Assembly (NCBI GenBank): GCA_024762535.1
Contig: JANTHG010000006.1
Span: forward strand, 1 to 40,656
Length of the DNA: 40,656 nt
Direction: 5' to 3'
DNA from: Calditrichaceae bacterium
GTDB lineage: Bacteria > Calditrichota > Calditrichia > Calditrichales > Calditrichaceae
Of the stretch, positions 2,907 to 32,326 are shown one piece after another. The notes beneath the pieces were generated by a model. The model saw nothing but the letters and a program-made list of their open reading frames with translations, was not told where the DNA came from and did no database searches. The first letter of the stretch is position 1; every line of letters starts with the position of its first letter. The translations under genes and the position numbers were made by a program.

Positions 2907-3775
2907 AAACTAAATTCATAGCTTAAACCGAATTTATGGGTTTCTGGCAATACCGGATGATTATTAAAAGAATAATCCAGGTGAATGCCTTTGTACATAA
3001 TACCCAGCCCGGCGGAGATCCGGTTGGGATCGGTGCTTGCTCCCAGACGTACAGCCAGCCAGCGCAACGGCAGATATTCCACGCCTCCGCGAATCTGCAT
3101 ATCAAATCCAAGGGTTTTATCAAAAGAAATAGATGTGATTAAATTGCTAACCGGGCGGTAGGCCGCTCCCAACACCACTCGCTGGGGTAAATCGTGACTG
3201 ACCTCGGAACCCAAATTCGGCGCATTAATATTGTACACATATACGCCCACATAGGTTCGTTCATACAGTGAGGCCTGCATACCAACATCTACCCCCAAAG
3301 TTCCTGCCGATCCTAAATTCAGCCCGTTTACAGACTGGCCGAGATTCCAGTAGTAGTATTTTAAATTATAGCCAAAAGATAAACTGGAATGCATATCATT
3401 CAGTAAATAAAATCCGTGTGAAAAGGTAGCGGTCATTTCCGAAGAAAGGGATTCGCCCTGATAAGTCACACCGTAATTCTCAAATGCAACACTCATGGTT
3501 CCAAAGCGATCCGAAATAGGCAGACTCGCCCCAAAAAACATATTCGATAAAAAAGTCTGATTAAAGGGACGCTGCATAGCGCTGGCAATGCCGTAGCTAT
3601 GCACCTGAGCCAATCCTGCCGGATTGTAATACGCAGCCCAGACATCGTTGGAAACGGCTACAAACGCGTCACTCATGGCCGTTGCACGGGCCGAAGGGTA
3701 ACGCGCGTCAAACACGCCCGCCTGTGATCCGGCTGCCAATAAAAGGGTTATGATGAGAAATCTTTTAACAATCAT
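2903..3775 (-). CDS. PorV/PorQ-like outer-membrane protein
   Basis: 290 residues with a signal peptide (MIVKRFLIITLLLAAGSQAG). The mature N-terminus has ARATAMSDAFVAVSNDVWAA followed by YYNPAGLA, the signature of the PorV/PorQ (UPF0164) barrel family, and it ends in GLSYEFSL with a terminal aromatic pattern. In Bacteroidota such proteins take part in type IX secretion; several neighbours carry T9SS-type sorting domains, which fits. It sits 21 bases downstream of the LTD/OB-fold gene and overlaps the helix-hairpin-helix barrel gene by 4 bases, so the three look co-transcribed. A porin-like role independent of secretion cannot be excluded. Confidence 0.72.
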   Translation of the reverse strand: MIVKRFLIITLLLAAGSQAGVFDARYPSARATAMSDAFVAVSNDVWAAYYNPAGLAQVHSYGIASAMQRPFNQTFLSNMFFGASLPISDRFGTMSVAFENYGVTYQGESLSSEMTATFSHGFYLLNDMHSSLSFGYNLKYYYWNLGQSVNGLNLGSAGTLGVDVGMQASLYERTYVGVYVYNINAPNLGSEVSHDLPQRVVLGAAYRPVSNLITSISFDKTLGFDMQIRGGVEYLPLRWLAVRLGASTDPNRISAGLGIMYKGIHLDYSFNNHPVLPETHKFGLSYEFSL

Positions 3776-7978: not shown

Positions 7979-9883
7979 TTATTGCTGAGCGGGATGCCAC
8001 TGGCTGCTTTTAAGCAAAATGTCCTGAATACGGTTTACTAATTTATGCGGATCCGTTAAATACCCTTCCAACAACAAAGCGCTTTCGTACAACTGTTCCA
8101 CCGCTTCGGTAATAAAAGGATCTTTGGGATCATTCTTGTAAATTTTAAGCATATTGCGCACCAACGCATGGTCCTTGTTCACCTCAAATACTTTTTTGGG
8201 CACTGAGGTATCTTTGTTCATGATGTGCAAAATTTTCTGCATTTGCGACGTCATATCCCCATCGGGACTCACCAGGCAGGAAGCGCTGTCGTGCAGGCGT
8301 TTGGATTCACGCACTTCGGTAACACGGTCACCCAGAATATCCTGAATTTTTTTCAGTAATTTTTTAAATACTTTTTCTTCGCCGTCACTTAAGGCCTCGG
8401 CTTTACTTTCTGTTTCTTCGGAATCTTCAAACTTCTCCAGTTTAGATAAGTCCGCTTGTTCCACAGCGGTTAAGGTGTAATCCGATTTGTATTTCACCAC
8501 ACCAGTCATGGCAAACTCATCTACCGGATCATAAAGATAGAGCACTTCAAGACCTTTGCGTTTAAAAATTTCGAGATGGGGATCGCTTTGCAGCGCTTCC
8601 CGGCTGGCGCCGGTTATGTAGTAAATTTCTTTTTGATCTTCTTTGGCCCGTTCCACATATTCGGCGAGAGACGTGAGTTGCCCTTCTTCTTCCAAAGCGG
8701 AAGAATCAAAACGCAGCAAGTCGGCGAATTTTTCCATATTGGCGTAATCCGAATAGCCGAGTTTGAATATTTTACCATGTATTTTCCAGAATTCCGCATA
8801 CGCTTCCGGATCATCTTTGGCCTTCTTGGTTAAAAAGGACAAAACCTGTTTCACTAAGGTTTGTGAAATTTTCATCACTACCCGGTTTTCCTGGAGCGTC
8901 TCACGAGAGATGTTCAGAGGAATATCCGGCGAATCTACCATGCCTTTGATAAATCCGAGGTATTCCGGCAGAAGCTCAGAATTTTTATGCTGAATAAGAA
9001 CGCCTTTCACATACAGGTCCAAACCGATGTCTTCTTTGGAAATACCAAACATATCAAAGGTTTGCTTGGGGATAAACATCAGGCTGTTAAACTGCACCGG
9101 CGCATCAATGGAAACATGAATCGTATCCATGGGCGGTTCGCTGTCGTAGGTTAAATATTTGTAGAATTCATCGTACTGTTCTTTTTTGATGGATGATTTC
9201 GGTTCGCGCCATAAGGCGGTTACGGTGTTGACTTTTTCACCATCCACCATGATGGGGAAAGAAATAAAATTGGAATGCTTTTTAATTGTAGATTCTACCC
9301 GATATTTTTCCAGAAACTCTTCGGCATCTTCTTTTAAATGAATTTCGATGGAGGTTCCGCGCTGTACGGGTTCATCCAGCTCTTCCAGTTTAAAACTTCC
9401 CATACCGCTGGATGTCCAGCGAATCGGTTTGGCATCCGGTTGAAAGGAACGGCTAGTGATATTTACCTCAGAGGCTACCATGAATACGGAATAGAAGCCC
9501 ACGCCAAATTTCCCAATGATGTTGGACACATCTTTATCTTTAGCTTCTTCCGACAGCTTTTGCAGGAAATCAGCGGAACCCGACTTAGCTATTGTTCCGA
9601 TATTTTTCACAATTTCCTCACCGGTCATACCAATACCCGTGTCATGAATAGTAAGCATTTTTTTATCTTTATCGAGCGTTATCTTTATTTCCAAAGGCAG
9701 GTTTTTATCCGCCACCTCCGTGCCACGGGTCATTTCGAAACGCAGTTTATCCAATGCGTCCGATGCGTTGGATACCAACTCGCGAATAAATATTTCCCGG
9801 TTGGTGTACAGGGAATGTACCAGAATATCCAATAGCTGATTAATTTCTGCTTTAAATTTGTAGGACTTTGCTTTCCCAGCCAT
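7979..9883 (-). CDS. htpG: Molecular chaperone HtpG (bacterial Hsp90)
   Basis: 634 residues, close to the usual length of about 620-640. HtpG is a cytosolic ATP-dependent homodimeric chaperone. The N-terminal GHKL ATPase domain shows [17 protein letters not shown] (the Asp-binding helix), [10 protein letters not shown] and [14 protein letters not shown]. The middle domain has [16 protein letters not shown] and, around residues 325-345, [14 protein letters not shown] with the catalytic-loop Arg. The C-terminal dimerisation domain ends in [12 protein letters not shown] without the eukaryotic EEVD tail. The start is set by SD AAGGAGG, 8 bases before the ATG. It stands alone between a hairpin upstream and a terminator downstream, so it is probably monocistronic. 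No CIRCE-like inverted repeat is evident in the 128-base upstream gap. Confidence 0.97.
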
Positions 9884-9933
9884 TGCAAGGTTCCTCCTTG
9901 TTAAATATAAGTTTTATAACATTTTCATTTTAT

Positions 9934-9959
9934 GCGGTTCCGGTTGTCACCGAAACCGC
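9934..9959. repeat. Inverted repeat between tlpA-like gene and htpG
   Basis: GCGGTT-C-CGGT-TGTC-ACCG-A-AACCGC forms a 10-bp stem with one mismatch and a 4-base loop. It lies 52 bases past the stop of the thioredoxin gene and 50 bases before htpG. On the minus strand it is followed by ATAAAATG, not a T-tract, so it could be an attenuated terminator or a 5'-leader hairpin of htpG. Confidence 0.5.
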
Positions 9960-10011
9960 TGATTTAAAAAATTATCTATATAAATGATGCAAAAACGGTG
10001 GGATAGTTACA

Positions 10012-10542
10012 TTATTCTGCAGCAAGCCGGCTAAGAAAATCGAACAATTCTTTACAAAAGCCGGGATCGTCTTTAAAGCCTTTGCTATAGCGGCGCACAT
10101 TGCCCTGCTTGTCAATTACCACCATAGTTGGCAAGGATTTTACATTATATTTTTTCGAAACCATCTGATATCTGTCTGCCAGGACAGGCAACTTGGGTTT
10201 CTTTTTAGCGAGATAGGGATCGAGTACCTCCGGTTTTTCGCCCACATCCACCAGCATAATTTTAACCGGCGCATCTTTTAACTGTTTTTTTACCTCTTCC
10301 AGGTGGGGAATTTCTTTTTGGCAGGGTACGCACCAGGTGGCAAAAAAACTCATTACTACCACGTATTTGGTTTTATTTTTCCAGGGCTTACGTAATTTTG
10401 GTCCCGAGACATCACGTAAAAAGAAATAATCGCCACCCACTTGCGGCAACGAAAAGGTCGGGGCCGAATCCCCCACCTTTAAACCGTCATTGGCCCATAA
10501 AAGAGAGGTTGAAAAGAGTATGATTAATATCCAGTACTTCAT
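10012..10542 (-). CDS. TlpA-like periplasmic thioredoxin-fold protein
   Basis: 176 residues. A signal peptide (MKYWILIILFSTSLLWAN) without a lipobox directs it to the periplasm. It follows the AhpC-TSA/TlpA plan: KVGDSAPTFSLPQVGGDYF, then SFFATWCVPCQKEIPHL with the redox pair Cys71/Cys74 in WCVPC, and the cis-Pro loop VKSLPTMVVID. TlpA-type proteins reduce disulfides in exported proteins such as cytochrome c apoproteins; no cytochrome gene lies nearby. The gene starts 9 bases after the stop of the SGNH lipoprotein gene, so it is probably co-transcribed with the second FadL-SGNH pair. Its partner is unknown. Confidence 0.85.
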   Translation of the reverse strand: MKYWILIILFSTSLLWANDGLKVGDSAPTFSLPQVGGDYFFLRDVSGPKLRKPWKNKTKYVVVMSFFATWCVPCQKEIPHLEEVKKQLKDAPVKIMLVDVGEKPEVLDPYLAKKKPKLPVLADRYQMVSKKYNVKSLPTMVVIDKQGNVRRYSKGFKDDPGFCKELFDFLSRLAAE

Positions 10543-11950: not shown

Positions 11951-13216
11951 TTAAAATGAATAACCAACGCTCATCCCGTAAGCGGTTGCCAATCCCGAAT
12001 ACGTCCCGTTGAAATTCTGCGCCGAATGGGTGATTTTGCGATCTTCCTGCAAAATGATCTGGTAAAACCCGTCCAGTTGCAAACCAAAGAGTCGATAACC
12101 TATTCCTGCTGAATAGATATGTCGGTCCCCTTCGGGCAGGGAAGGTTCCACATAGGCTTCCGGAACCGCATGCCGATCCCAGGCATAACCGGCCCGTACT
12201 TCCAGATCCGGCTGCACCTGATATTCCAGCCCAAAACGCAGGCTGTAGGAATCTTCATAGTTTCGCTTAACTTCGCTTTGTGTTTCACCGGCTACGGGTT
12301 GATCAAAATCAATGGTCAATTTATCGTAGGAATTCCAGGCGGTAAGCACGTAATCCGCTTCGGCCCTTAAATTTTCGGTAAAGACGTAGCTTAGGCCGAC
12401 GCCAAACACATACGGTAATTTTATGGAAGAACTTGCACCTGTTGTAGCCGGGAAATAACCGGCAATTTCCTGATCTATCACCGCATCATTGGTTGAAGGA
12501 AAACGAAAGGTCGCTGTTCCGTCTTTAAAATCCAGTAAAACATTACTGCGATAATTTATCCCAAGACGCACTCCCTGCAGAGGCTGAAATTGTATTCCTA
12601 AATTAAAACCGTACCCACCGCCATCCGCTTGTAAAGAGGAATTGCCATACACATTCCGGGGCGTAAAATAGACACTTTTATCCATGGTAACATTGGCCTG
12701 TGCATACATCACACCCACTGCAAGAGAAAGGTTTTCGATAAGACGATACGATATAACCATATTATAAAACAGCGTTTGTAATTGGGTGTTTGTACCAAGT
12801 TCCCGGCCGACCCAAGGATTATCATCCGTTCCCCAGGTAGAACCCATACCAAAGGGGCTGTACACTCCGATTCCAGCTACCAGCCATTCATTAACGCTGT
12901 ATGCCGCATAAAAATGAGAAGGAAAAAACTGCCCGTCTTGAGCACGGGTATAATGCCAGGGGTCCACGGTTTCCGGTCCGGTAAAAGCAAAGCTGGTATT
13001 GATCACTGTTGTACCCAAGCTGATTTGTAAACCCTGCACATCCGACAGACCGGCCGGATTGTAAAAAATGGCCGAAGGACTGTGCACTCCGGCTATCTGA
13101 GCGCCGCCCAGTGCCGTTGCTTTGGCATTTTGTTCGTAAATGGCAAAACCGGAACTAAACGATTGAGCCAAAGATAGTAATAGAATAAAAATTACTACGG
13201 TTATTTTTTTTAACAT
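11951..13216 (-). CDS. OmpP1/FadL-family outer-membrane transporter (copy 2)
   Basis: 421 residues. FadL-type barrels import long-chain fatty acids and other hydrophobic compounds across the outer membrane. After the signal peptide (MLKKITVVIFILLLSLAQSFSSG) the mature protein begins GFAIYEQNAKATALGGAQIAG, followed by the hatch-domain signature SAIFYNPAGLSDVQG. The rest is a beta-barrel ending in YGMSVGYSF. It is clearly paralogous to the gene at 14915-16168 (same PEAYVEPSLPEGDRHIY-type extracellular segment near the end). It is the first gene of a three-gene unit with the SGNH-like lipoprotein and the TlpA-like protein. A strong SD (AGGAGG) overlaps a CCTGTTAACAGG palindrome just before the start codon. 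Confidence 0.9.
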   Translation of the reverse strand: MLKKITVVIFILLLSLAQSFSSGFAIYEQNAKATALGGAQIAGVHSPSAIFYNPAGLSDVQGLQISLGTTVINTSFAFTGPETVDPWHYTRAQDGQFFPSHFYAAYSVNEWLVAGIGVYSPFGMGSTWGTDDNPWVGRELGTNTQLQTLFYNMVISYRLIENLSLAVGVMYAQANVTMDKSVYFTPRNVYGNSSLQADGGGYGFNLGIQFQPLQGVRLGINYRSNVLLDFKDGTATFRFPSTNDAVIDQEIAGYFPATTGASSSIKLPYVFGVGLSYVFTENLRAEADYVLTAWNSYDKLTIDFDQPVAGETQSEVKRNYEDSYSLRFGLEYQVQPDLEVRAGYAWDRHAVPEAYVEPSLPEGDRHIYSAGIGYRLFGLQLDGFYQIILQEDRKITHSAQNFNGTYSGLATAYGMSVGYSF

Positions 13217-13304
13217 GCGGCCTCCTGTTAACAGGCATTTTAATTATGGGCTAATATACTTTTTTTGGCTGCTTGTACGCAATACAGATTTTATACCTAT
13301 ACGC

Positions 13305-13341
13305 AAAAAAAAAGGCAGAGATTCATCACCTCTGCCTTTTT
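13305..13341 (-). terminator. Rho-independent terminator after the first SGNH lipoprotein gene
   Basis: A perfect 12-bp stem (AAAAAGGCAGAG at 13309-13320 with CTCTGCCTTTTT at 13330-13341) with a 9-base loop runs into further Ts on the minus strand (As at 13305-13308). It lies about 20 bases past the stop at 13361 and separates the two duplicated modules. Confidence 0.88.
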
Positions 13342-13360
13342 ATTCATTTTTTTTACACTT

Positions 13361-14890
13361 CTAACGAAGAATTTTCCCGCCAAAGAGTTCCGGGATGCGC
13401 GCAAAGGCGTTAGTTTTATTAACCGCCCGTTTACTCATGCTTGCAGTTTGCAAATCTTTCATAAACTTCATTACATCCACACGCGGCATATTTGTACTAT
13501 ATTTCGCATTGATCACATCGATAAATTGATTAGCGACTAAAGCATACCCCACATTATTAGGATGCACACCGTCTAAACTAAAAACGCCGCCCGTAATATA
13601 GGATGCGTTAAAATCCACACCTGCTACGGTATAACCATCAGCCAGGTCTTTCATAAAAGCGTTCATATCAACAACAGGGACATCAAACTGGCCTGCAACG
13701 GAGGCAATAGCCGTATTGAAATCTGATGTGGCCTGTTGCGCAATAGCGATTTCATCCGGATCTAACACAAGCGCATTGGGTAGCGGATTGCGCGGATCCA
13801 AACCAAAGGCCTGGGTCGTATCCACAGCCGGCATGGTAGAGAGTAATACACTTACCGGAATGCCTGCTTTACCGGCTACATAGCGATACCAGGCGCCTGT
13901 TGGCTGACCAATTAAACCGGCATAGGAAGAAGCTACCAAAGTTACCAACGTATTTCCGGCCAGCAAGTCATCGGTTGTGGCCTGACCTGTTGCCACGCCT
14001 GTTGCCAGATTATCCGTTGTTTTTTCGTACGCTACCGGATACGGAATATTATTGGCAAGTAAGGAAGCAGCTATTTTAGGACCGATGGTAGTAAAAAAAG
14101 GAATGCTGGTAACATCCGGAATATTGGCTACCACTGCTTTGGCGCCCTGTCCACCGCTGGTTACCTTGTTTAACATGTTTGTGTACAAGAGTTGGAAAAT
14201 AGCAGCATCGGTTGGCGCAGCCGGGCTGGTACCACCACTGGTGGCATAACCGAGCACATCATTATTACCAATCCAAACGCTGACAAAAGTAGGCTGCAAC
14301 ATCAATGCCTGCTGAATCGGATTGGTATTGCCAAAGGCCGGATTTCTTAGAATAGGATCAACAAGGCCGCTATGGCTATAGCTTTCTGCGGCCGTAACAG
14401 CGCTGTCCAAATCCCCTAACACAATACCCGGAATACCGAGATTGTTGTAGGGTGCCGCATAGCTCATAATATCCGTAGAAGTATAAGGCATGGCCGGATT
14501 AAAACTGGTAGCCGCATAGGGAACCGGATTGATAACCGGATTACCTGTAGCATCAAAACCCTGCAATTCCATAATACCGGCGCCGTCCGCTGTATAGGAG
14601 CCTAAGCCCGGATATGCAATCAGCGGTTGCGCAAAAGTTGCACCCACACCTGCCTGATTGGCTATCTGTTTTACAAAACTATTCTTTTGATATTTTTCAG
14701 TTAAAGCGCCTGATTGATAACCGGCGGTCAGACTGTTACCCAAGGCCACGTACTGGCCAAACATTTGAGTGGTGGCTTCATTCAGTTGCACATCGGCCGA
14801 ACTTTTTACAGCCGGTTCTTCTAAAGTACAACCACTTAACACCAGCAAAGCCATAATGCCAACGGCTATTAAGCTATTGATTAGTTTCAT
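13361..14890 (-). CDS. SGNH/GDSL hydrolase-family lipoprotein
   Basis: 509 residues. The signal peptide ends LVLSG-Cys21 (lipobox), and the mature N-terminus is CTLEEP. The SGNH blocks are intact: block I VALGNSLTAGYQ with Ser53, block III VWIGNNDVLG with Asn210, and block V LDGVHPNNVG with Asp440 and His443. Family members are esterases or lipases acting on lipids or acylated glycans. Being a lipoprotein placed 24 bases after a FadL-type transporter gene, it plausibly releases a hydrophobic product at the outer membrane for that transporter. The paralogue at 10552-11925 lacks the nucleophile. Compared with that paralogue it has about 50 extra residues, spread between blocks III and V and at the C-terminus (FGGKILR). 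SD GGAGATTTATAG precedes the ATG. Confidence 0.87.
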   Translation of the reverse strand: MKLINSLIAVGIMALLVLSGCTLEEPAVKSSADVQLNEATTQMFGQYVALGNSLTAGYQSGALTEKYQKNSFVKQIANQAGVGATFAQPLIAYPGLGSYTADGAGIMELQGFDATGNPVINPVPYAATSFNPAMPYTSTDIMSYAAPYNNLGIPGIVLGDLDSAVTAAESYSHSGLVDPILRNPAFGNTNPIQQALMLQPTFVSVWIGNNDVLGYATSGGTSPAAPTDAAIFQLLYTNMLNKVTSGGQGAKAVVANIPDVTSIPFFTTIGPKIAASLLANNIPYPVAYEKTTDNLATGVATGQATTDDLLAGNTLVTLVASSYAGLIGQPTGAWYRYVAGKAGIPVSVLLSTMPAVDTTQAFGLDPRNPLPNALVLDPDEIAIAQQATSDFNTAIASVAGQFDVPVVDMNAFMKDLADGYTVAGVDFNASYITGGVFSLDGVHPNNVGYALVANQFIDVINAKYSTNMPRVDVMKFMKDLQTASMSKRAVNKTNAFARIPELFGGKILR

Positions 14891-17093: not shown

Positions 17094-18791
17094 CTACCTC
17101 ATTAAAATCATTTTTCGAATCTGATCCCGGTCACCGGCCTGTAACCGATACACATAGATACCGCTCGGTAAACCGGCTGCATTAAAACGAACCGTGTGAC
17201 TGCCTGCGTTTTCGCGGCCATGTACCAGCGTGCGTATTTTCTGCCCCAACATGTTGTAAACCGTTAATTCCGTTTCGCAAACCTCTGATAAGCGATAATG
17301 GATGGTGGTTGAGGGGTTGAAGGGATTAGGATAATTTTGTTCCAGCATAAACTGATGGGGCGCTACCGGGGCGCTCACCACACTTACGGTTTCGGATACA
17401 TAAACCGAAAGCGCCACTTCTACGATGCTTTCGTCTGAATCATTATTATGAACTCGGATGGTGGTGGTATGTTCTCCTTCTGAACCGGGAGCCGTAAACT
17501 GGACTCGCGCATACTCATAGGTTTCGGAAGCAAGCGTCATACTTTGCGGACTGACTAAAAATTCCGGATTGGTAGATTCGATTTGTGTAACATTTAGTTC
17601 TGTGTTTCCCGTATTCATAATGGCAATGGAGTAAACAGCAGTAGTCCCATAGCCCAGAGTATCCATTTCGGCTTGTTCGGGCGCCACGGCAATTTCGGGC
17701 GCGTTGGTAAGTTCTACCAGACTTATGGAAGGCATACGTGCGGCAAATTCCGGATGGTCAATAAAAGGATTGCGGTTGTGCTGCCAGTTGGTATAAATCC
17801 GATCGTTTCTGCGGCGTTCCCAGTCGTCCACAGGATCGCTTTGGTGCCATTCATACAAGGTGGATTCTTTGCCGAACAACGGTTCCTTGCTGTTTGTGGA
17901 GGGCGTATAGTCCACCAATTCCAAATCGTAAGACGTATCGTCCCCTTCGTAACGCACAACCATGTAATACATCATGCGTGCCACATCTCCTTTAACCGCA
18001 TCGCGCGGCTCCCAGGAATCATCATCATAGCGGCATTCGGTGGGGCCGTCTCCATCAGTGTACAGCGTGCCACCATTATCAAAATCCAGATTACCCCGCT
18101 TGCTGTTGACTGTTACGTCGGTTGGACGAATATGATGTACATCGGTTCCGGCTGGTGCACTGGTACCAAAATCACCGTGGGATTTAGCCCACACATGCTC
18201 CCTATTCCACTCGCTGGAGTTTCCGCCATGATTCGATTTGGCGTATGACCAACCTGTGTAAAGCAATATTACATTATTTGTATTATCCGGGTCTTCATCC
18301 GTATCGCTGAGAATATTCCACAAATCCCCGTAATCATATTCGGTATGACCCTTTATGGTATTGTGCAAAGCCTCTTTTAAGTCGGCTCCCCATAAATTTT
18401 GTGTAGCGTCGTAGTAAGTATCTTCATAAATGCCTTTTGCTGAAGTTTCCACAATCAACGGGTGGTTACCGGCATCCACGTCGATACGTAAAAAATCGGA
18501 ATAATCCACATTCTGGCCGCTTTCAAAATAGATGTGAAAATTCCGGCTGCCATGAGCCGGCAAAGTGCCTTGGGTCAGGTCGGTCGAAAATTCACTTTCT
18601 TCAAAGGTCGCGCTTTCCACCTGAATCGGCCGTGAAAGATTGTTCTGCAGGACGAGGGTTTTTTCGTGCTGCGTGTAACAGGTTGCTTCGCCAAACTGCA
18701 CTACCGTATCGGATACGGTTACGGCATTCCAGTTGCTTTGCGCCAAAAGTGGAAGCGCAAAAAATAAAACTATCCAACTACTGTGTTTCAT
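17094..18791 (-). CDS. Secreted endonuclease I-family nuclease with T9SS sorting domain
   Basis: 565 residues. A signal peptide (MKHSSWIVLFFALPLLAQ) is followed by an Ig-like segment at about 22-120. The endonuclease I domain (PF04231; Vvn/EndA/BsnI group) lies at about 123-350 with WNREHVWAKSHG (195-206), DVHHIRPTD (217-225), SKRGNLDF, and NRNPFIDHPE near 339-348; Glu198/His199 and the following Asn residues are the expected metal and catalytic residues. A second Ig-like domain (about 365-465) precedes the type A sorting domain (YPNPFNPSTTIHY, VYNMLGQKIRTL, SGIYVYRLQ, ending RKMILMR). It should degrade extracellular DNA or RNA at or outside the cell surface. It sits upstream of the esterase and 27 bases downstream of the unknown 564-aa gene. 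Confidence 0.9.
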   Translation of the reverse strand: MKHSSWIVLFFALPLLAQSNWNAVTVSDTVVQFGEATCYTQHEKTLVLQNNLSRPIQVESATFEESEFSTDLTQGTLPAHGSRNFHIYFESGQNVDYSDFLRIDVDAGNHPLIVETSAKGIYEDTYYDATQNLWGADLKEALHNTIKGHTEYDYGDLWNILSDTDEDPDNTNNVILLYTGWSYAKSNHGGNSSEWNREHVWAKSHGDFGTSAPAGTDVHHIRPTDVTVNSKRGNLDFDNGGTLYTDGDGPTECRYDDDSWEPRDAVKGDVARMMYYMVVRYEGDDTSYDLELVDYTPSTNSKEPLFGKESTLYEWHQSDPVDDWERRRNDRIYTNWQHNRNPFIDHPEFAARMPSISLVELTNAPEIAVAPEQAEMDTLGYGTTAVYSIAIMNTGNTELNVTQIESTNPEFLVSPQSMTLASETYEYARVQFTAPGSEGEHTTTIRVHNNDSDESIVEVALSVYVSETVSVVSAPVAPHQFMLEQNYPNPFNPSTTIHYRLSEVCETELTVYNMLGQKIRTLVHGRENAGSHTVRFNAAGLPSGIYVYRLQAGDRDQIRKMILMR

Positions 18792-18818: not shown

Positions 18819-20513
18819 TCATAAAGATTCATTTATTTGCTTTTTTACAATTAATATGCTGCTAATTTCCGTATCTTCTGGTTGGTCTTCCCATTCGAAC
18901 ACCTGGTCTGTTTCATATGGTATGTGTTCTAATTCTATCCATTCAAGAACTATCCGTTTTAACGGGCATTCCTTTGAACCGGCCTGATGATACGGCAGAA
19001 TATAGGGAAAAATCAGTGCAATTCGAAACCCATCCCCTGCTGTTTCTATCCGTTCATTTAAAAATTCATATATTTGCACCCAGGCATAAAACAAGTGTAC
19101 GGCTTCCTGTTTAAGCTCGCGCGCATACAAATGGTTGAATAGCGCCTGCCCGTAGCCTCCTAATTTATTATAGAACGGACCGTGCAACGCTATTTCGTCA
19201 TGCCAAATTATATGCTCATCCGGCCAGTCCGGCAAGGGATTTTCAAACAGAATGTTGATATATTGCCCCCGTTTCCAGTTTTGACCTGGATAGGGGGATA
19301 ATGGGAAAAAGAGAGCGGCGGTACTCTGATTTTCTACAGAAAGTCTCTCGTAATTCCAACGCGTTTTCTCCGGCAAGAGCAGCGGTTGAATTTTATCGAG
19401 CAGAATTGCAAAACGCAGCAATTCGTTTAACGTGGTTTGTAGGCGGGCACTAAAATCATTTCCATCCGCTTTACGACCCGGCTTCTGAACCGTACGCATG
19501 AGAGCCGTCCTTAAAAAATCCAGCACCGGCTGCGATTCACTGACAACTTTTTGTTCAATTAAAAACCGGGCGGCGGCAAATCCCTTTTGCATTTTAATGG
19601 GTAGACCAGCTGCTTCGAGCCGGGGTTTTTGTTGTTCCCAGTAGGTTAAAAAGGATTGCTCTATCCGGTCCATAAACAAATCGGCTTGTTGCTCTCCATT
19701 GGATAGCAGCAGCATGCGCAAACCGGAAAGCAATCCGCTTAAAGCTGTCTGGAATTCGGGGAGTCGTTTTTCCCTGATGGCAGCATACAGGTGATTCGGT
19801 AATGATTGTACATCCGGGAATTCCACGAAATATAGCTCACCTCCGGAAGAGGCGCTAAGAATATTTTGCACGGACTCCGGTGCATTCCAAAGCTCTATGG
19901 GGCCGGGGCTGACAGCTTGCAGGTAATTCAAAATGCCATTCAAATGGAAAGGCTGTACTTCGGGCCAGGTTTTTTTTAAAAGCGGATATTTGTCGGAACC
20001 AGGCGCTACAAGGGATTGGCGAAAGCGGCGGAATTGGCGATCCAGTTCGATTTCGTTAGGAACCCATTCACGGATACGGCAAAGCTGCTGAAGAGTATAG
20101 ACCAAACTGCCAAAACGAAACACATGCCAGTTGTACACTTCGGTTTCTTTTTGCATCATGGAAAACCCGGAAGACGTCAGTTCCGGCGGAGGGTCCGTAC
20201 TTCGCTGGAAAATAAAACAACTCTCAAAAAAGGGTGAAGTGGAAAGAATAAACTGCAGGTCGGGTAAGTGCTCTCCGCTCCATATAAATCCGTAACAACC
20301 TGTTTCCGCTAAATGGGCACTTAATTGCCGTTGCAATTCAATACTTTTAGATATGACCAGTTTTAAATCCGGAAAGTCAACCAGACCAAAAACCGTTTGC
20401 ACTTTTATGGCTTTAATATCCTTTGCGCCAAGTTCCAGTTCCGCCTGTTGTCCGAATGCCGGTGTCTGCGGAGGATGGGATACGCATTTAAAAAGAACGT
20501 GCTTCCTGCTCAT
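18819..20513 (-). CDS. Protein of unknown function downstream of glgC
   Basis: 564 residues, no signal peptide and no membrane segment, so probably cytosolic. I do not recognise a family. It is rich in Leu, Gln and aromatic residues with mixed alpha/beta character. Visible landmarks are FGLVDFPDLKLVISKS near residue 45, FQRSTDPPPELTSSG near 128, a helical middle (LQTTLNELLRFAILLDKIQPLLLP) and a well-defined C-terminal stretch around 440-540 (WHDEIALHGPFYNKLGGYG, FRIALIFPYILPYHQ). The start lies 6 bases after the stop of glgC, so it is probably translated from the same mRNA and may serve glycogen metabolism, though nothing in the sequence shows this. There is no catalytic motif that I can name. 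Confidence 0.6.
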   Translation of the reverse strand: MSRKHVLFKCVSHPPQTPAFGQQAELELGAKDIKAIKVQTVFGLVDFPDLKLVISKSIELQRQLSAHLAETGCYGFIWSGEHLPDLQFILSTSPFFESCFIFQRSTDPPPELTSSGFSMMQKETEVYNWHVFRFGSLVYTLQQLCRIREWVPNEIELDRQFRRFRQSLVAPGSDKYPLLKKTWPEVQPFHLNGILNYLQAVSPGPIELWNAPESVQNILSASSGGELYFVEFPDVQSLPNHLYAAIREKRLPEFQTALSGLLSGLRMLLLSNGEQQADLFMDRIEQSFLTYWEQQKPRLEAAGLPIKMQKGFAAARFLIEQKVVSESQPVLDFLRTALMRTVQKPGRKADGNDFSARLQTTLNELLRFAILLDKIQPLLLPEKTRWNYERLSVENQSTAALFFPLSPYPGQNWKRGQYINILFENPLPDWPDEHIIWHDEIALHGPFYNKLGGYGQALFNHLYARELKQEAVHLFYAWVQIYEFLNERIETAGDGFRIALIFPYILPYHQAGSKECPLKRIVLEWIELEHIPYETDQVFEWEDQPEDTEISSILIVKKQINESL

Positions 20514-20519
20514 GAAATA

Positions 20520-21797
20520 TTATATACTCATATTATCCGGTATTATTGCACCCTTGGGAATGATAATAATGCCATCACGTATCGTATAGTTTTCGGCATC
20601 TTCGTGGTCTTTGTTATCCTTATTGACTAGTTGCACATTATTTCCTATCCGTGCATCCAAATCTACAATAGCATTACGGATGATACAATTGTGCCCAATA
20701 CCTAAATTCGGCGGATCATTTTCTGTGCGACTGTTCCGCTGCTCTACGGATTCATAAAGCGTATTTCCCATAATAATCGAGCGTTGGACAAAAGTACCTT
20801 CATCAATAAATGAGCGAATCCCCACAACTGAGTTTTCAATTATGGAACCGAGCAAAATGGAACCTTCGGAAATGATGGACTGATTAATCTGACAGTTGTA
20901 GATTTTGGATGGTGGCAGAAATCGCGGGTTAGTGAAAAAAGGGAATTTTTCATCGTAAAAATTGAACCGGGGCACCGGCTTGGTTAGCTCAAAGTGGGCG
21001 TCAAAAAAGGCGCGCATGGTACCAATATCTTCCCAATAGCCGTCAAAGAAATAGGCTGAAACTTTACTTGTTTTTAAACTGCTCGGAATCACTTCCCTGC
21101 CAAAATCTTCAAAATCCGTACTTTCTAATAAATCAAACAGAGCTTCTTTTTTGAAGATATAGATCCCCATAGAAGCTACATGGGTTCGACCGGAAGCATC
21201 TAAGTTAAATGTTTTAAATGTTTCATTATCAATTTTATATTTGTCAAGCGTTTCAGGGTCGTTCGGTTTTTCAAAAAAATCCGTGATGGTACCGTGCTTA
21301 TCAGTTTTTAAAACACCGAACTCAGACGCTTCGTGAGTATAAATTGGCTTAACTGCAATGGATATATCCGCTTTTTGATTGAGATGGTGTTCAAAAAAGT
21401 TTTGATAATCCATACGATATAAATGATCTCCGGAAAGAATTATGATATGATCATCGGCATGTTTCAGATAGCGCAGATTCTTACGAACAGCGTCTGCTGT
21501 TCCCTGGTACCAGTCCTGACTTTCCGCGGTTTGCTGAGCGGCGAGGATACGCACATAGCCCTTACTAAAGGTATCGAATCGGTAAGTATTGGTAATGTGT
21601 CGGTGGAGAGATTCGGTATTGAACTGAGTCAGTACAAAAATATGGCGTACATTGGAATGCAGACAATTACTGATTGGGATATCGATTAATCGGAATTTAC
21701 CACCAATCGGTACGGCCGGTTTTGCTCTATGCCGTGTTAAGGGGTCTAACCGTGTTCCCTGACCTCCGCCCAGTATCACTGCTGTTAAAGCGCCCAT
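20520..21797 (-). CDS. glgC: Glucose-1-phosphate adenylyltransferase (ADP-glucose pyrophosphorylase)
   Basis: 425 residues, the usual length for the family. It makes ADP-glucose from ATP and glucose-1-phosphate, the committed step of bacterial glycogen synthesis, in the cytosol. The nucleotidyltransferase domain shows AVILGGGQGTRLDPLT, KPAVPIGGKFRLIDIPISNC, DWYQGTADAVRKNL, ILSGDHLYRMDY, VASMGIYIF and FFDGYWEDIGTMRAFFDAH, all hallmark GlgC positions. The C-terminal left-handed beta-helix (about 300-425) has the hexapeptide rhythm (GSILLGSIIENSVVGIRS). No glgA, glgB or glgP lies in the window. The start is supported by SD AAGGGGAAG. It lies 21 bases after the ArsC-family selenoprotein candidate and 6 bases before the unknown gene. 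Confidence 0.95.
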   Translation of the reverse strand: MGALTAVILGGGQGTRLDPLTRHRAKPAVPIGGKFRLIDIPISNCLHSNVRHIFVLTQFNTESLHRHITNTYRFDTFSKGYVRILAAQQTAESQDWYQGTADAVRKNLRYLKHADDHIIILSGDHLYRMDYQNFFEHHLNQKADISIAVKPIYTHEASEFGVLKTDKHGTITDFFEKPNDPETLDKYKIDNETFKTFNLDASGRTHVASMGIYIFKKEALFDLLESTDFEDFGREVIPSSLKTSKVSAYFFDGYWEDIGTMRAFFDAHFELTKPVPRFNFYDEKFPFFTNPRFLPPSKIYNCQINQSIISEGSILLGSIIENSVVGIRSFIDEGTFVQRSIIMGNTLYESVEQRNSRTENDPPNLGIGHNCIIRNAIVDLDARIGNNVQLVNKDNKDHEDAENYTIRDGIIIIPKGAIIPDNMSI

Positions 21798-21818
21798 CTT
21801 TTCTTCCCCTTATTTTTG

Positions 21819-22163
21819 TTAGGAATCAATAAAGTTTAAAATACCCGGTTCGTCAAATCCAATCCAAAAACGTCCGTTCTTTTCGATGAGCGGGCGTTTG
21901 ATCATACCCTGTTCCTGCAGCAATACCTGAAACAGTTCATCCTCATTCAGATTTTTTTCTTTCAGCTTCAGTTTGCGGTAGGTGGCACCTTTACTGTTTA
22001 CCACCACATCCAAACCGAGCTGATGCACCACATCCCGTAAAAAATCTTCACCTACCGGAGTCTTTTTAAAATTGATGAATTCGTAGTCAACATTGTTGGC
22101 TTCAAAAACCGCACGGGTTTTACGAATTTGCTGTCAGTTGGGAATACCATAAAGTTTAATCAT
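21819..22163 (-). CDS. ArsC/Spx-family reductase with in-frame TGA, probable selenoprotein
   Basis: The full frame is 114 codons plus stop, the normal length of the ArsC/YffB (PF03960) family. It starts at ATG 22163-22161 with SD GGCAGGA, 20 bases after the serine hydrolase stop. It reads MIKLYGIPN, then TGA (22136-22134), then QQIRKTRAVFEANNVDYEFI, and continues without interruption through GMIKRPLIEKNGRFWIGF to the TAA. In relatives the residue at codon 10 is the catalytic Cys (YGIPNC...KKA). The frame, family motifs and length are otherwise undamaged, there is no Cys elsewhere in the protein, and a SECIS-like hairpin follows, so TGA most likely encodes selenocysteine. A gene finder would start it wrongly at GTG 22031 and lose the active site. 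Alternatives are a nonsense mutation or a sequencing error. Arsenate as substrate is not established; a thiol/selenol oxidoreductase role is equally likely. Confidence 0.78.
22101..22126 (-). promoter_or_regulatory. Candidate bacterial SECIS element
   Basis: In the mRNA after the TGA codon, AAAACC (22121-22116) pairs with GGUUUU (22110-22105) around the 5-base loop CGUGC. A 2x1 internal loop follows and then UUC:GAA (22126-22124 with 22103-22101). The apical loop begins 18 nt after the UGA and has G at its second position, followed by U. Known bacterial SECIS rules ask for 16-37 nt and a G within the first two loop bases, so it fits. Confidence 0.65.
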
Positions 22164-22183
22164 CTTTTGTCCTGCCTGTTAAA

Positions 22184-23380
22184 TTATCTTACAATAGCGC
22201 CGGCCACCACATTGGCCACTAAACTACGTAAGCGCACCACATGGCCCTTGTCATAGGGATGTACCCGGTTCGTCAGTAAAATAACTACCGTATGCGTTGC
22301 CGGATCTATCACCATGGAGGTACCTGTGTATCCTGTATGTCCGTATGCACATGCCGAAAACAGATCGCCTTTGTTGGAGCTATATGCGGAGGCCAAATCC
22401 CAACCCAGGCCACGACCAAATTTTTCAAACCCTTTGGGAATGGCTGTCATGGTTTTTACGGCAGCAGGGCTTAAAATACGTACGCCGTTCCAGGCACCAC
22501 CATTTAGCATCATGGAGCCGAACAGAGCCATATCGTCCACGTTGGAAAACAAGCCCGCATTACCGGAGATACAGCCCATCATTACCCGTGCCAACGGATC
22601 GTGCACCGTGCCGATGAGCGGCTGCCCGTCCGGTTGCAGCTGTGTAGCGGCACAACTTTGCGCAATTGCCCCCTGCGGCTGCATTTCTGTTTTTTCCATA
22701 TGCAGAGGCGTAAAAATATTTTCCTGAGAAAAGGTTTTAAGGCTTTGTCCGCTCACCTTTTCCACAATGCGCTGCAGCGTAATAAAATTTAGACAACTGT
22801 ATTTAAAATAGGTTCCCGGCGCGTGGTGTCTGGGAACTCGCGCAATATAGGCCAGCAGCGAATCCGGATTGGGTGCGCCGTATTTTTTTTTCAATTCGTT
22901 CACCGGTGCATAGGGCGGCAGGCCGGAAGTATGAGTCATTAAATGAATAATACGGATATCGGTTTGGACATGGGTAGAATCATCTACCCAGGGAATAAAA
23001 TCCGGGAAGAAGTTTTTCACTTTGTCCAGCAATCGTAACTGACCACGATCAACCAAAATCATTGCGGAGGTGGCTGTGGCAATGGGCTTGGTAAGTGAGG
23101 CCAGATCAAAAACCGTTTCTGCAGTCATCTTCTTTTTTACAGGAATCAGTTCTTTATAGCCGTAGGCCTTTCGGTAAACAACCTGATCGTTCCGGCTGAC
23201 AAGCAGTACGGCTCCGGGAATATCATGCGCAGCAATAGCGGAGTTAATAACGGCATCCACCTGTTGCAGCCTAACAGGATCGAAACCCTGCGTTTGGGGG
23301 GCGCTAACGTGTAATTTCTGAGCTAATAAAATAGACGAATATAATAGAATAAATACAATTAAATTTCGGTGCAGTATCAT
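22184..23380 (-). CDS. Secreted serine hydrolase, beta-lactamase class C/esterase EstB-like family
   Basis: 398 residues with a signal peptide (MILHRNLIVFILLYSSILLA). The PF00144 fold is marked by the nucleophile motif SLTK (Ser95, Lys98) in FDLASLTKPIATATSAM, by HLMTHTSGLPPY, by YSCLNFITLQ (Tyr194 of the YxN-type motif, with Cys in place of Asn) and by YGHTGYTGTS in place of KTG. These are the features of secreted penicillin-binding-like esterases or D-amino-acid peptidases, not of resistance beta-lactamases. The substrate is unknown; peptidoglycan fragments or esters are typical. It is the first gene of a minus-strand unit continuing into the ArsC-family gene, glgC and the unknown gene. It is preceded by about 90 AT-rich bases after a terminator, where its promoter should lie. 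Confidence 0.87.
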   Translation of the reverse strand: MILHRNLIVFILLYSSILLAQKLHVSAPQTQGFDPVRLQQVDAVINSAIAAHDIPGAVLLVSRNDQVVYRKAYGYKELIPVKKKMTAETVFDLASLTKPIATATSAMILVDRGQLRLLDKVKNFFPDFIPWVDDSTHVQTDIRIIHLMTHTSGLPPYAPVNELKKKYGAPNPDSLLAYIARVPRHHAPGTYFKYSCLNFITLQRIVEKVSGQSLKTFSQENIFTPLHMEKTEMQPQGAIAQSCAATQLQPDGQPLIGTVHDPLARVMMGCISGNAGLFSNVDDMALFGSMMLNGGAWNGVRILSPAAVKTMTAIPKGFEKFGRGLGWDLASAYSSNKGDLFSACAYGHTGYTGTSMVIDPATHTVVILLTNRVHPYDKGHVVRLRSLVANVVAGAIVR

Positions 23381-28919: not shown

Positions 28920-30137
28920 TTAAAAGAATACCACAGCCATTGTATGTAAAACACTAAAATGGTCACCACCGATAAAACCATCGCCGGTTGCATTATCTGA
29001 ATTCTGGACAATGGTGTAATCTAAAATGATCTTCATGTTGGCATTTGCATACCAGTTAAGCCCTAAAGTGTAATTATTGGCCATACCTCCCAAAATGCCG
29101 GCTTTCGTGTCCGACAAATCTAAATAGCTGTAACGGGCAGCCACCTCCCAGGCGCCAGAGACATTATTCTTTGGAATAATTTGTCCAAACTCACCCTGCG
29201 TTTCGTCCCAGGGTCGTTCTTCTCCGGTTAAAATATAGCTTACAAAAGCATATCCACCGGAAAAACTGGCATCTTTTGCGCCATTCATACGCTTTAAACC
29301 TTTATGAATATATTCGGACTGAAAGGACAAATTTTTATATTTGAAAGCGCCTTCCAAACCGAACATGGTCGTATAGTCCACATCAAAGATATTCCCCGTA
29401 TCTAAAATTTCCACATCTCCAATTTTAGTTTCCGGCTCACTATTGTAAGCAACAACATTATTATTATCATCCGGATTTATAAAGGCTCCGGCTAAACCAA
29501 GATGTATCCTATATTTTTGTGCGAAAACAGGAGCGTAGGCGAAACGCGCTGCCACACCACCGCCTGTCTCATCCACGGTTTTATTTTTACGTGTATCCAT
29601 AGTTTGACCAAATACATTGCCACGGAAGTTCCAGTTGCTCCCCCATTTTGAATATTCAATACCGGTACGACGACCAATTTTAAATGCCAGCATGGGATAA
29701 GCGCGTTCGGCAAACGTTAAAAAACGCGAGCTGGTCAGTTCGTTTAAACCCACCGGCGCTTTAAAATGCCCTACTTTAATGTGGGCATTATGAAATCCCA
29801 CATAGTTGAAAAACATATCTTTCACTTCCACAACACCTTCTGCAATATCCATATCCCATTCAGCCCGCCAAATATTCCACAATTTGGTTTTCATGGCAAA
29901 GCGGCCCTTACGCAGATGGGTTCCGTTGCTAAGATGATTTTTATTTTCGAAAAAATATGCACCATTGATATACATACGCACATCGAAACGCGTCATAAAT
30001 TGTCCGTCTGCCGACTTAAATTTAATGATTCCGTTATCCCACTCTGTGTCCCCTTTGGATATCTGGTCCTGCGCCGAAGCAGATATAACCAGGCTAAGCA
30101 GAAACGTAAGCGTTAACAGCCATTTAAACGACTTCAT
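28920..30137 (-). CDS. OprP/OprO-type phosphate-selective porin family protein
   Basis: 405 residues. A signal peptide (MKSFKWLLTLTFLLSLVISASA) leads to an outer-membrane barrel of the PF07396 family. The markers are SADGQFMTRFDVRMYINGAY, LRKGRFAMKTKLWNIWRAEW, KVGHFKAPVGLNELTSSRF, FAERAYPMLAFKIGRRTGI and a C-terminal AVVFF. OprP-type trimers form phosphate or polyphosphate channels in the outer membrane. The start overlaps the stop of the Pit transporter gene by 4 bases (ATGA), which couples outer- and inner-membrane phosphate transport and supports the substrate assignment. Selectivity for orthophosphate, pyrophosphate or polyphosphate cannot be read from the sequence. Confidence 0.85.
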   Translation of the reverse strand: MKSFKWLLTLTFLLSLVISASAQDQISKGDTEWDNGIIKFKSADGQFMTRFDVRMYINGAYFFENKNHLSNGTHLRKGRFAMKTKLWNIWRAEWDMDIAEGVVEVKDMFFNYVGFHNAHIKVGHFKAPVGLNELTSSRFLTFAERAYPMLAFKIGRRTGIEYSKWGSNWNFRGNVFGQTMDTRKNKTVDETGGGVAARFAYAPVFAQKYRIHLGLAGAFINPDDNNNVVAYNSEPETKIGDVEILDTGNIFDVDYTTMFGLEGAFKYKNLSFQSEYIHKGLKRMNGAKDASFSGGYAFVSYILTGEERPWDETQGEFGQIIPKNNVSGAWEVAARYSYLDLSDTKAGILGGMANNYTLGLNWYANANMKIILDYTIVQNSDNATGDGFIGGDHFSVLHTMAVVFF

Positions 30138-31639
30138 TTTGCCTCCTCTTTATTGATTGGTTTGTTTTCGATATGAAATGTAGAAAATAGAAAGTTTAAT
30201 TTTGTTTTAATATCTTTATTATACAACTTATTTTTTTTGTTATCCGGTTTGAAGCGCCAGACTTCACTACTTTTTTGCAGGGCTTGTTGCAATTCCCAGT
30301 GATGCCCAAATGTTTTACCGGACAGGGCTCGCACGGCTTCTAACTGTTCCTGTGAAAACCAGTTCTTATCCAATTCTGTGGCTATCTTTTTCGGTTCTAT
30401 ATATAAATAACTGATTTGAGAAGCATCTAATATGAGCTGCGCCTGGTCTTCGCTTATAACGCCGGTCTTTTCCAGTTCATCTTTTAAGCGAATGGAATTG
30501 GTGAATACTTTGTTTTTGTACGGTTGCAGAGCTTGGGTATCGATTTGTTTAGACTGCAGGTATTCCATAACCGGTTCGGAAATACTGTATTTGATTTCTT
30601 TGTTCACCTGCTGATTAAATACGTTCTGGAAAATAAACAGAGAAACAAAGGTTAAGATACCCGCTGCTATGGGAGTGCTTACCCAACCGGCAGCAATTTC
30701 ACCTAAAACGTTAAAACGGATACCACGCCCTCCTTTGGCAATACCGATGCCAATAACCGCACCTACTACCGCCTGGGAACTTGAAACGGGCACCAAAGGG
30801 ATGCTGGGCAAACCATGACTGATGAGCCAGGCTTCCAAACCTTCCGAAGAAAAGAGAAACAAAACCAGTGATTCCGACAATACAACAATCAAAGCAGCCA
30901 CGGGTGACAACTTAAAAAGTCCGCCACCGACCGTATCCATCACTTTATAAGAATAGGTAAACACACCCAGGGCAATGGCCAATCCACCGATAAAAAAGAG
31001 AATTTGCGCCGCATTCAGGCTAAACAAACCAAATACATCCAAAGTAGGAAAACTAACCACCGGTACAAATACTCCCATCACATTGGCAATATTATTTGCG
31101 CCCAAACTGTACGCTCCAAAAGCACCTACCAGTACCAATCCCGCACGGGTGTAGGAATCCATTGATAACAGGTGAATATTCAGTTTATCCAGCACATTGC
31201 GAAAGGCGTAAAAAAGCAGCAGAGCAAAAACTGCGGATAACACCGGGCAGAGCACCCAGGTAGAAACAATCTTGGTTAGGGAATGGGTATCGGTAGCGGC
31301 GCCGGCAAAAAAGTTCCAGCCAATAATAGCTCCCACAATGGCCTGAGAGGTGGAAACAGGCAACTTCAGTTTGGTCATCCAGGCCACGGTAAAAGCGGCT
31401 GCAAAAGCTACAATAAAAGAACCGGCAATGGCATTAACCGCACCAAGCTTCCCCAGGGTGTGGGTTGCCCCGGCACCACCGACTACGGCACCGATAATTA
31501 CAAATACACTGGCAATAATAGCTGCGGTTTTAAAGCGAATCATACGCGTACCCACCGCAGTTCCAAACACATTGGCCGCATCATTGGCACCCAAAGACCA
31601 ACCGAGAAAAAGCCCGCTTGTTAAAAAGATAAATATCAT
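30134..31639 (-). CDS. pit: Inorganic phosphate transporter, PiT family, with long C-terminal tail
   Basis: 501 residues. The two PiT family repeats are visible: LGWSLGANDAANVFGTAVGT near the N-terminus and AYSLGANNIANVMGVFVP in the middle, each followed by PVSTSQAIVGAIIGWNF and VPVSSSQAVVGAVIGIGIAKGG. About nine or ten membrane helices occupy residues 1-330. Pit transporters move metal-phosphate with protons or sodium. The last 165 residues or so are hydrophilic and helical (EIKYSISEPVMEYLQSKQI...), longer than the short tail of well-known members, and may be a regulatory domain. The upstream DUF47 gene is the usual partner. It overlaps the porin gene by 4 bases. Confidence 0.92.
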   Translation of the reverse strand: MIFIFLTSGLFLGWSLGANDAANVFGTAVGTRMIRFKTAAIIASVFVIIGAVVGGAGATHTLGKLGAVNAIAGSFIVAFAAAFTVAWMTKLKLPVSTSQAIVGAIIGWNFFAGAATDTHSLTKIVSTWVLCPVLSAVFALLLFYAFRNVLDKLNIHLLSMDSYTRAGLVLVGAFGAYSLGANNIANVMGVFVPVVSFPTLDVFGLFSLNAAQILFFIGGLAIALGVFTYSYKVMDTVGGGLFKLSPVAALIVVLSESLVLFLFSSEGLEAWLISHGLPSIPLVPVSSSQAVVGAVIGIGIAKGGRGIRFNVLGEIAAGWVSTPIAAGILTFVSLFIFQNVFNQQVNKEIKYSISEPVMEYLQSKQIDTQALQPYKNKVFTNSIRLKDELEKTGVISEDQAQLILDASQISYLYIEPKKIATELDKNWFSQEQLEAVRALSGKTFGHHWELQQALQKSSEVWRFKPDNKKNKLYNKDIKTKLNFLFSTFHIENKPINKEEAK

Positions 31640-31653
31640 AATCAGTCTCTGAG

Positions 31654-32301
31654 TTAAATGGTTCTTTTAATCGTGTAAATGGAAAGGCGGTCTGCCACCC
31701 GCTCGGCATTATCCGCCAATGTATCGATGTGCAAGGCAAAATAACGCAGATGAAATTTTTGAGATAATTCCAAATCGTCTTTGGCGAACACGTCCCGTTT
31801 AATCTGGTCGCTCTGCTTGTCTGCCTCTTTTTCGTAGAAATAGACCTTATGCAGATGATCTTTCACCATTTTTACTTCTTTAAAAAAAGCTCTGGTGGCC
31901 AGCACAACGGATTCCGCCGCTTTGCTGGTGGTCTCCGCCAATTCCACAAAACGTGGCTTAAATTGGTCCGGAATAAAAGGTCGTTCCACGTCAAACTGGT
32001 TCAGGGTTTCTTTGGCCGTGTCAATCACATCGTCCATACTTTCCAGCAGACCCAATACGTCGCCACGGTGTTCGGGAATAAGGGAATGGAGATAAAGGTC
32101 GTTTTCAATATTCCTGCGCAAATCGTCTGCCTTGCCTTCCAGCTTATCAATGGTTTTTAAATGCGTTTCAAAACTGGATTTATTTTCATTCATATAATTT
32201 TTTACCGCCTGCACAAAAACAAGCACTCCCTGACTCACGTCATCCAAGTATTCATCGATGCTATTTTCCAGCGCTTTTGTGGTTCTAAATAAAACAGCCA
32301 T
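31654..32301 (-). CDS. DUF47 family (PhoU-like) phosphate transport regulator
   Basis: 215 residues, all-helical, close to the TIGR00153/DUF47 length. Recognisable stretches are HLKTIDKLEGKADDLRRNIENDL, LLESMDDVIDTAKETL and VYFYEKEADKQSDQIKRDVF, with the paired acidic metal-binding-type helices (ExxxD) of PhoU-related proteins. Proteins of this group are almost always encoded beside a PiT transporter and are thought to regulate or gate it. It is 14 bases upstream of the pit gene here and 25 bases downstream of tctA, so it may belong to the tct transcript. It is cytosolic and peripheral to the membrane. Confidence 0.9.
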   Translation of the reverse strand: MAVLFRTTKALENSIDEYLDDVSQGVLVFVQAVKNYMNENKSSFETHLKTIDKLEGKADDLRRNIENDLYLHSLIPEHRGDVLGLLESMDDVIDTAKETLNQFDVERPFIPDQFKPRFVELAETTSKAAESVVLATRAFFKEVKMVKDHLHKVYFYEKEADKQSDQIKRDVFAKDDLELSQKFHLRYFALHIDTLADNAERVADRLSIYTIKRTI

Positions 32302-32326
32302 GATTTCACCTTAATGTTTATGTTTG

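Follow-up and report, generated by a model that had tools for sequence, protein, structure and literature searches.

We identified, in a stretch of 40,656 nucleotides from a Calditrichaceae bacterium (assembly GCA_024762535.1, contig JANTHG010000006.1, positions 1 to 40,656 of the forward strand; hereafter, the window), what is very probably a selenoprotein gene, in which an in-frame UGA would be decoded as selenocysteine (Sec) by means of tRNA-Sec, SelA, SelD, SelB and a hairpin and whose product is most likely a one-selenol reductase. The gene has an otherwise open frame, orthologues that carry either Cys or UGA at the same codon, purifying selection beyond the UGA and a product with a predicted fold of the ArsC/Spx superfamily. 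Its host contains tRNA-Sec, selA and selD, and the other genomes of its family contain SelB.

Reading frame, orthologues and selection

The frame on the minus strand from 22163 to 21819 reads MIKLYGIPN-TGA-QQIRKTRA and then remains open through residue 114. It starts with ATG at 22163, and its TAA stop ends at 21819. With TGA translated as Sec (U), the product begins with MIKLYGIPNUQQIRKTRAVFEANNVDYEFINFKK... and contains the motifs MIKRPLIE and FWIGF, but no Cys elsewhere in its 114 residues. An earlier note on this DNA had described such a frame with intact family motifs and without another Cys, and the translation bears out each of these points. It had also anticipated that a gene finder would call a truncated product; with translation table 11, the only open reading frame obtained in this frame was indeed one of 70 aa from GTG at 22031. 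An annotation that treats the UGA as a stop loses the part of such a gene that encodes the active site. The features of the gene are as follows.

21819..22163, minus strand: gene of a predicted Sec-containing reductase (YffB/ArsC-like) of 114 aa, which starts MIKLYGIPNUQQIRK... when TGA is translated as Sec
22134..22136, minus strand: in-frame UGA as codon 10 (predicted Sec), aligned in orthologues with the catalytic Cys
22170..22173, minus strand: AGGA, Shine-Dalgarno-like, 6 nt 5' of the ATG at 22163

A start upstream of the UGA is supported by this AGGA and by the similar stretches found 5' of the ATG in the three other genes with UGA described below (AAGGA in genomes G006 and G011; AGGAGA in G005). 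When the window was scanned for frames broken by one TGA, 30 candidates were obtained, and the reductase gene was the only one that did not overlap with an open frame of at least 200 codons. The read-through frames at 9868-10281 and 13140-13364 on the plus strand had no Pfam match.

A protein search of 60 genomes yielded matches in 24. Nineteen of the matches were strong, i.e., 13 from the family of the window (the window included) and six from a sister family, f2; we infer both the name of f2, partly from kinship, and that of the order, Calditrichales. Codon 10 is TGA in four of these 19 orthologues (G000, which is the window genome, G006, G011 and G005) and TGC or TGT in the remaining 15, so that the close homologues have Cys or TGA there throughout. 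This agrees with the placement, in the earlier note, of the UGA at the catalytic Cys. The alignment contains no stop besides TGA at codon 10, and the random disruptions in sister species that would have spoken against a functional gene were thus not observed. Over codons 11-112, dN/dS was ~0.11 between G000 and G006 (0.148/1.31), ~0.10 between G000 and G011 (0.149/1.49) and ~0.03 between G006 and G011 (0.047/1.52), all of which are rough values because synonymous sites are near saturation. Ratios of ~0.03-0.11 beyond the UGA argue for more than a chance open frame.

These results bear on two alternatives. The TGA could be an ordinary stop in a decaying pseudogene: the frame has a single in-frame stop near its 5' end, one base change turns TGC or TGT into TGA, and selB was not seen in the host assembly (see below). 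The same codon is, however, TGA in three other genomes, one of whose genes is just 58% identical to that of the window, and the gene has no further stop and low dN/dS downstream; decay of the gene is therefore highly improbable. The second alternative, an error of one base in sequencing or assembly, might be entertained for a draft such as this: the assembly to which the window contributes contig 6 comprises 317 contigs, totals 3,271,545 bases and is 89.18% complete. Given that G006, G011 and G005 carry the same TGA, such an error is very unlikely, indeed close to negligible.

The phylogenetic tree requires two changes between Cys and Sec, with G005 placed apart from the other three UGA genes; a single Sec clade is not rejected (p-AU 0.168). 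A profile search of 40 genomes of the phylum revealed no additional close orthologue, but it did show a TGA in the three distant ArsC relatives of family f5 described below. In a profile search of 385 genomes (E ≤ 1e-12), 45 genomes matched at 48 places, six of which had one TGA: the four UGA genes and one gene each in G246 and G070. A scan of genome contigs with the reductase gave three loci.

Selenium machinery and a putative SECIS hairpin

The host genome contains a tRNA-Sec with the anticodon UCA (70.6 bits, over the gathering score), selA (493.9 bits) and two selD genes over the cut-off (415.7 and 360.9 bits), of which the one with 360.9 bits has an in-frame UGA itself. The loci of the host selD genes, one of them with the in-frame UGA and its own hairpin, are as follows.

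L018, G000:C2:31521-32459: selD
L017, G000:C9:597-1523: selD

The selD gene without in-frame UGA is a single open frame, and the stretch upstream of it resembles a cysteine desulfurase, which we take to be of the NifS type.

The earlier note had proposed a search of the host for selA, selB, selC and selD. While tRNA-Sec, selA and selD were found, selB went undetected in the host genome, which is 89% complete; the best six matches all fell below the cut-off. Host searches with the 4.1-kb DNA of a relative's selB region and with the product of the gene that adjoins selB in G011, presumably a peptidase, were both empty; as neither search had a positive control, these outcomes agree with a gap in the assembly rather than prove it. 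SelB was over the cut-off in all 14 other genomes of the window's family and in none of the six f2 genomes. Similarly, tRNA-Sec was detected (E ≤ 1e-10) in 9 of 14 family genomes, compared to 0 of 6 f2 genomes. The five family genomes without a tRNA-Sec match are 72-89% complete, and G011, a UGA genome that is 72% complete, gave no tRNA-Sec match. The simplest reading is that selB lies in a stretch missing from the host assembly, in which case the strain would have SelB. The absence of selenium genes that would have counted against a selenoprotein is thus answered mainly, though not fully, since tRNA-Sec, selA and selD are present but selB was not found.

It could also be argued that the UGA is read as Cys or Trp without selenium, either by a changed genetic code or by near-cognate read-through, in line with the selB gene not found in the assembly and with the weakness of the hairpin described below. 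This is still more improbable than decay of the gene, as tRNA-Sec with the UCA anticodon, selA and selD are present and TGA ends other frames in the window. TGA is the stop in 6 of the 29 open frames of at least 200 codons in the window; among these, the frame at 17598-18248 is antisense to another frame, and that at 30134-31666 has a Pfam match, so at least one TGA-ended frame is supported in this way. On the grounds of the shared TGA, the selection, the TGA-ended frames and tRNA-Sec, we rejected a pseudogene, a base error and a global reassignment of UGA.

The proposal that codon 10 specifies Sec, made in the earlier note, is instead supported by the alternation of Cys and UGA and by tRNA-Sec, selA and selD. 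In the proposed mechanism, the UGA would be read by tRNA-Sec(UCA), which would be charged via SelA with selenium from SelD, and SelB would deliver the charged tRNA by binding to a small hairpin that closely follows the UGA. A candidate for this hairpin was found in the window.

22105..22121, minus strand: putative bacterial SECIS hairpin AAAACC[CGUGC]GGUUUU (loop in brackets), with the loop 18 nt after the UGA and G second in the loop

In all four UGA genes, a stem of 6 or 7 bp can form that encloses a loop of 5 nt, 18 nt downstream of the UGA. The loop is CGUGC in G000, G006 and G011 and AGGUC in G005, and the stem of G005 differs from the other three by one double change from C-G to G-C in the same register. 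In a covariation test, which has little power with four sequences, this double change was equalled in 134 of 500 shuffles. We defined a hairpin of interest as one with at least 6 bp and an energy of ≤ -3.1 kcal/mol (the window hairpin's own value), located 16-37 nt after codon 10 and with a G within the first two bases of the loop; such a hairpin was found in 4/4 UGA genes and 0/15 Cys orthologues. The Cys orthologue in G004 has a 4-bp hairpin (-3.7), and in two of the 15, those of G013 and G002, one of the two best hairpins listed has 6 bp but is weaker. Residue 17, the codon of which opens the loop, is Arg in all four UGA genes and in two of the 15 Cys genes (G004 and G015), a bias that would fit a constraint at the RNA level. 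The UGA-type selD of the host has a similar element, UCCGG[AGUUA]CUGGA, with a spacing of 19.

According to the available text of PMC13188914, the bSECIS model comprises a loop of 3-9 nt, an upper stem of 4-16 bp, a G as one of the first two loop bases, a distance of 16-37 nt from the UGA and a minimum free energy (MFE) of ≤ -7.5. The window hairpin agrees with the shape of this model (loop of 5 nt, stem of 6 bp, G in second place, spacing of 18 nt). Its MFE is -6.5 kcal/mol when ~40 nt are folded and -8.3 at 47-52 nt; the limit of -7.5 is reached only with 47-52 nt folded, and in a 57-nt fold the hairpin is replaced by another structure. The folding z-scores of the UGA genes were not significant (window gene, -0.49; remaining genes, -0.39, -0.21 and +0.18), and for two of the four, G011 and G005, folding 39 nt gave a minimum-energy structure other than the hairpin. 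The Cys orthologue in G015 folds more strongly (z = -4.19). As background, 971 of 11486 codons in the long frames of the window are followed by a hairpin of this quality, 56 of them at spacing 18. With a stricter limit of -4.0, which lies beyond the energy of the window hairpin, the counts are 750 of 11486 codons and 3 of 52 Cys codons. The hairpin of the UGA genes is thus a weak, putative SECIS element.

Gene neighborhood

The reductase gene lies between the following two genes of the window.

20520..21797, minus strand: glgC (ADP-glucose pyrophosphorylase), PF00483 and PF25247, 21 nt downstream of the reductase gene
22184..23380, minus strand: beta-lactamase-family (PF00144) gene, the upstream neighbor of the reductase gene

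Judging from this arrangement, the reductase gene and glgC are probably co-transcribed. Across the loci compared (20520-22163 of the window, L024-L039 and L110 among them), the reductase gene is upstream of glgC in 16 of 19. In 14 of the 19, glgC is found on the same strand no more than 61 nt downstream, as illustrated by the 21 nt in the window and an overlap of 4 in G017; three of the starts used for these spacings were estimated from the alignment. In G019 and G016, glgC follows after 378 and 397 nt, respectively, and the stretch covered in G006, G011 and G010 revealed no glgC. Because glgC adjoins both the Sec form (in the window and G005) and the Cys form, the two forms are orthologues and not paralogues. 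With Sec and Cys orthologues at one locus, nature offers a comparison of the two residues in a one-thiol reductase.

A homologue of the gene at 18819-20513 of the window is found ~0.7 kb beyond the reductase gene in both G006 and G011, and the intervening stretches are located as follows.

L109, ~4413-5125, and L111, ~2473-3236: stretch between the reductase gene and the next conserved gene in G006 and G011, respectively

The gene at 18819-20513, which follows glgC in the window, encodes a 564-aa protein without Pfam match, and the homologues of its product in G006 and G011 have identities of 33-48%. On the other side of the reductase gene, a homologue of the beta-lactamase-family gene is also found upstream in G004, G008, G012, G013 and G015. 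Elsewhere in the window, the region 28920-32310 contains three adjacent genes, whose products are a phosphate-selective porin, a PHO4-type phosphate transporter and a PhoU-like protein.

The conserved gene order suggests a functional link of the reductase with glycogen synthesis, and the glgC neighbor gives an initial clue to what this poorly characterized family may act on. It could be speculated that the YffB-like enzyme keeps the GlgC protein from the same operon reduced or free of mixed disulfides, in which case glycogen synthesis would be under redox control in this order and dependent on selenium in some species; we regard this as doubtful, and GlgC as the substrate is a guess from gene order. 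Cys45, Cys302 and Cys371 of GlgC are conserved in 14 of 14 sequences compared (a set that includes the window but not the two f2 copies separated from the reductase gene by a long gap), and this conservation may have other causes.

Family, proposed function and comparison with known systems

With the UGA translated as Cys, the reductase matched PF03960 with 70.1 bits (cut-off 24, E = 2e-19), and TIGR01617 (arsC_related; 88.3 bits, cut-off 75.05) was the sole NCBIfam model that it passed. It was below the cut-offs of TIGR00014 (arsenate reductase; 51.2 bits, cut-off 106.05), NF041106 (ArsC_rel_Se_1; 34.9 bits, cut-off 85), three Spx/SpxA models and NF008107 (ArsC family reductase; 74.7 bits, cut-off 121). 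Given that we take NF008107 to be the NCBIfam model for YffB, the reductase is YffB-like rather than a formal member. Its best sequence match in the PDB was YffB 1rw1 (E = 8.7e-15). An AlphaFold2 model, built with an alignment of 15 orthologues, had a mean pLDDT of 95.5, and in a fold search of this model 1rw1 again ranked first in the PDB (TM 0.89, rmsd 1.7), ahead of Spx and other ArsC-type structures. The model thus points to a thioredoxin-fold protein that is closest, within the ArsC/Spx superfamily, to the YffB branch.

The fold and the single reactive residue together point to a role as a one-selenol reductase. The product would be a 114-aa thioredoxin-fold protein with one reactive selenol (UxxI) and without a resolving Cys, most likely dependent on a low-molecular-weight thiol. 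Its selenolate would attack an oxidized or mixed-disulfide substrate, and an external thiol would regenerate the selenol. For Brucella YffB, reduced glutathione was reported to cause shifts next to the putative active site, and the protein, which lacks the Arg triad of E. coli ArsC, was proposed to be a glutathione-dependent thiol reductase (available text of PMC3169414).

Two other roles for a selenoprotein of this fold were considered. In the first, it would bind RNA polymerase as an Spx-like regulator and not act as an enzyme. TIGR01617, the one NCBIfam model passed, is named for the Spx/MgsR regulatory protein, and Spx structures ranked second and fourth by fold; the reductase, however, has UxxI with no partner residue of the CxxC type, scores below the Spx/SpxA cut-offs and matches YffB best by both sequence and fold, and such a role is unlikely. 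In the second, it would be a true arsenate reductase for arsenic detoxification, as might be expected from the match to the Pfam ArsC family and from a genome paper in which the YffB subfamily is said to reduce arsenate with glutathione (PMC2628731, in the text available). Against this stand the low TIGR00014 score, the missing Arg triad of YffB, whose authors doubt that it shares the mechanism or function of ArsC (PMC3169414, same text), and the absence of an arsenic gene among the 21 neighboring proteins scanned. We consider this role slightly less likely still. A one-selenol, thiol-dependent reductase thus remains the preferred reading.

Selenoproteins of the wider superfamily have been published before. 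'ArsC-like' and 'distant ArsC homolog' selenoproteins were named in 2006, the latter being known here by name alone (PMC1794560, in part). 'Arsenate reductase (ArsC) 1' with UxxS (pfam03960) and 'Arsenate reductase 2' with UxxC (cd03032) followed in 2008 (PMC2398784, in part), ArsC-like entries with UxxS and UxxC in 2022 (PMC9312934, in part) and TIGR00014 with UxxS and NF041106 with UxxC in 2026 (PMC13188914, in part). UxxI is absent from the main text of PMC2398784, and UxxI, TIGR01617 and PF03960 are absent from the main text of PMC13188914. A literature search, which mostly did not extend to subscription journals, found neither an earlier report of Calditrichota-lineage or Spx selenoproteins nor a UxxI, YffB-like selenoprotein in print. 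The description 'unreported-looking' in the earlier note therefore holds, within the literature searched, for the UxxI, YffB-like form but not for ArsC-like UxxS and UxxC selenoproteins, which were published in 2006, 2008, 2022 and 2026. The reductase would represent a new Sec subfamily (YffB-like, UxxI) in a superfamily known for selenoproteins, i.e., a finding of moderate novelty.

Related genes were also observed elsewhere. In three genomes of family f5 (G025, G036 and G027; loci L086, L088 and L090), distant ArsC-like genes with TGA would encode UxxC and carry a hairpin with a GGUC loop at a spacing of 17 nt from the UGA (-5.1, -8.7 and -11.1 kcal/mol, respectively). Outside the phylum, the UGA-containing ArsC-related genes of G246 (L101, UxxV) and G070 (L108, UxxC) each have a hairpin. 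We detected tRNA-Sec in all nine genomes tested (seven of f5, G246 and G070). Six phage records (MT835931.1, CAKLQH020000008.1 and others) contain a YffB/ArsC-like gene with <60% identity, annotated as yffB in two of the three records listed.

Among the closest known systems, YffB (PA3664, 1rw1; Brucella YffB, 2kok) shares the predicted fold, the length and the KRP arginine with the reductase, but 1rw1 and 2kok have Cys where the window reductase would have Sec. Spx, which carries a CxxC redox switch, belongs to the same superfamily and has the same fold, whereas the reductase has UQQI without CxxC. The Sec protein of TIGR01617 type predicted in G246 (UxxV; 79.5 bits, above the cut-off of that model) has a GGUC-loop hairpin and tRNA-Sec in its genome; it is 25% identical to the window reductase, and no glgC was found within ~3.3 kb of its gene. 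The Sec arsenate reductases with UxxS (pfam03960/TIGR00014) and UxxC (cd03032; NF041106), as described in the available text of PMC2398784 and PMC13188914, share the superfamily and the U-x-x motif, but they have Ser or Cys at +3 where the window reductase has Ile, and the latter is below the TIGR00014 and NF041106 cut-offs. The replacement of the usual active-site Cys by Sec is a known kind of substitution, of which the window gene appears to be a sound new case; it adds to these systems a YffB-like UxxI selenoprotein that was recognized through Cys orthologues at the same locus.
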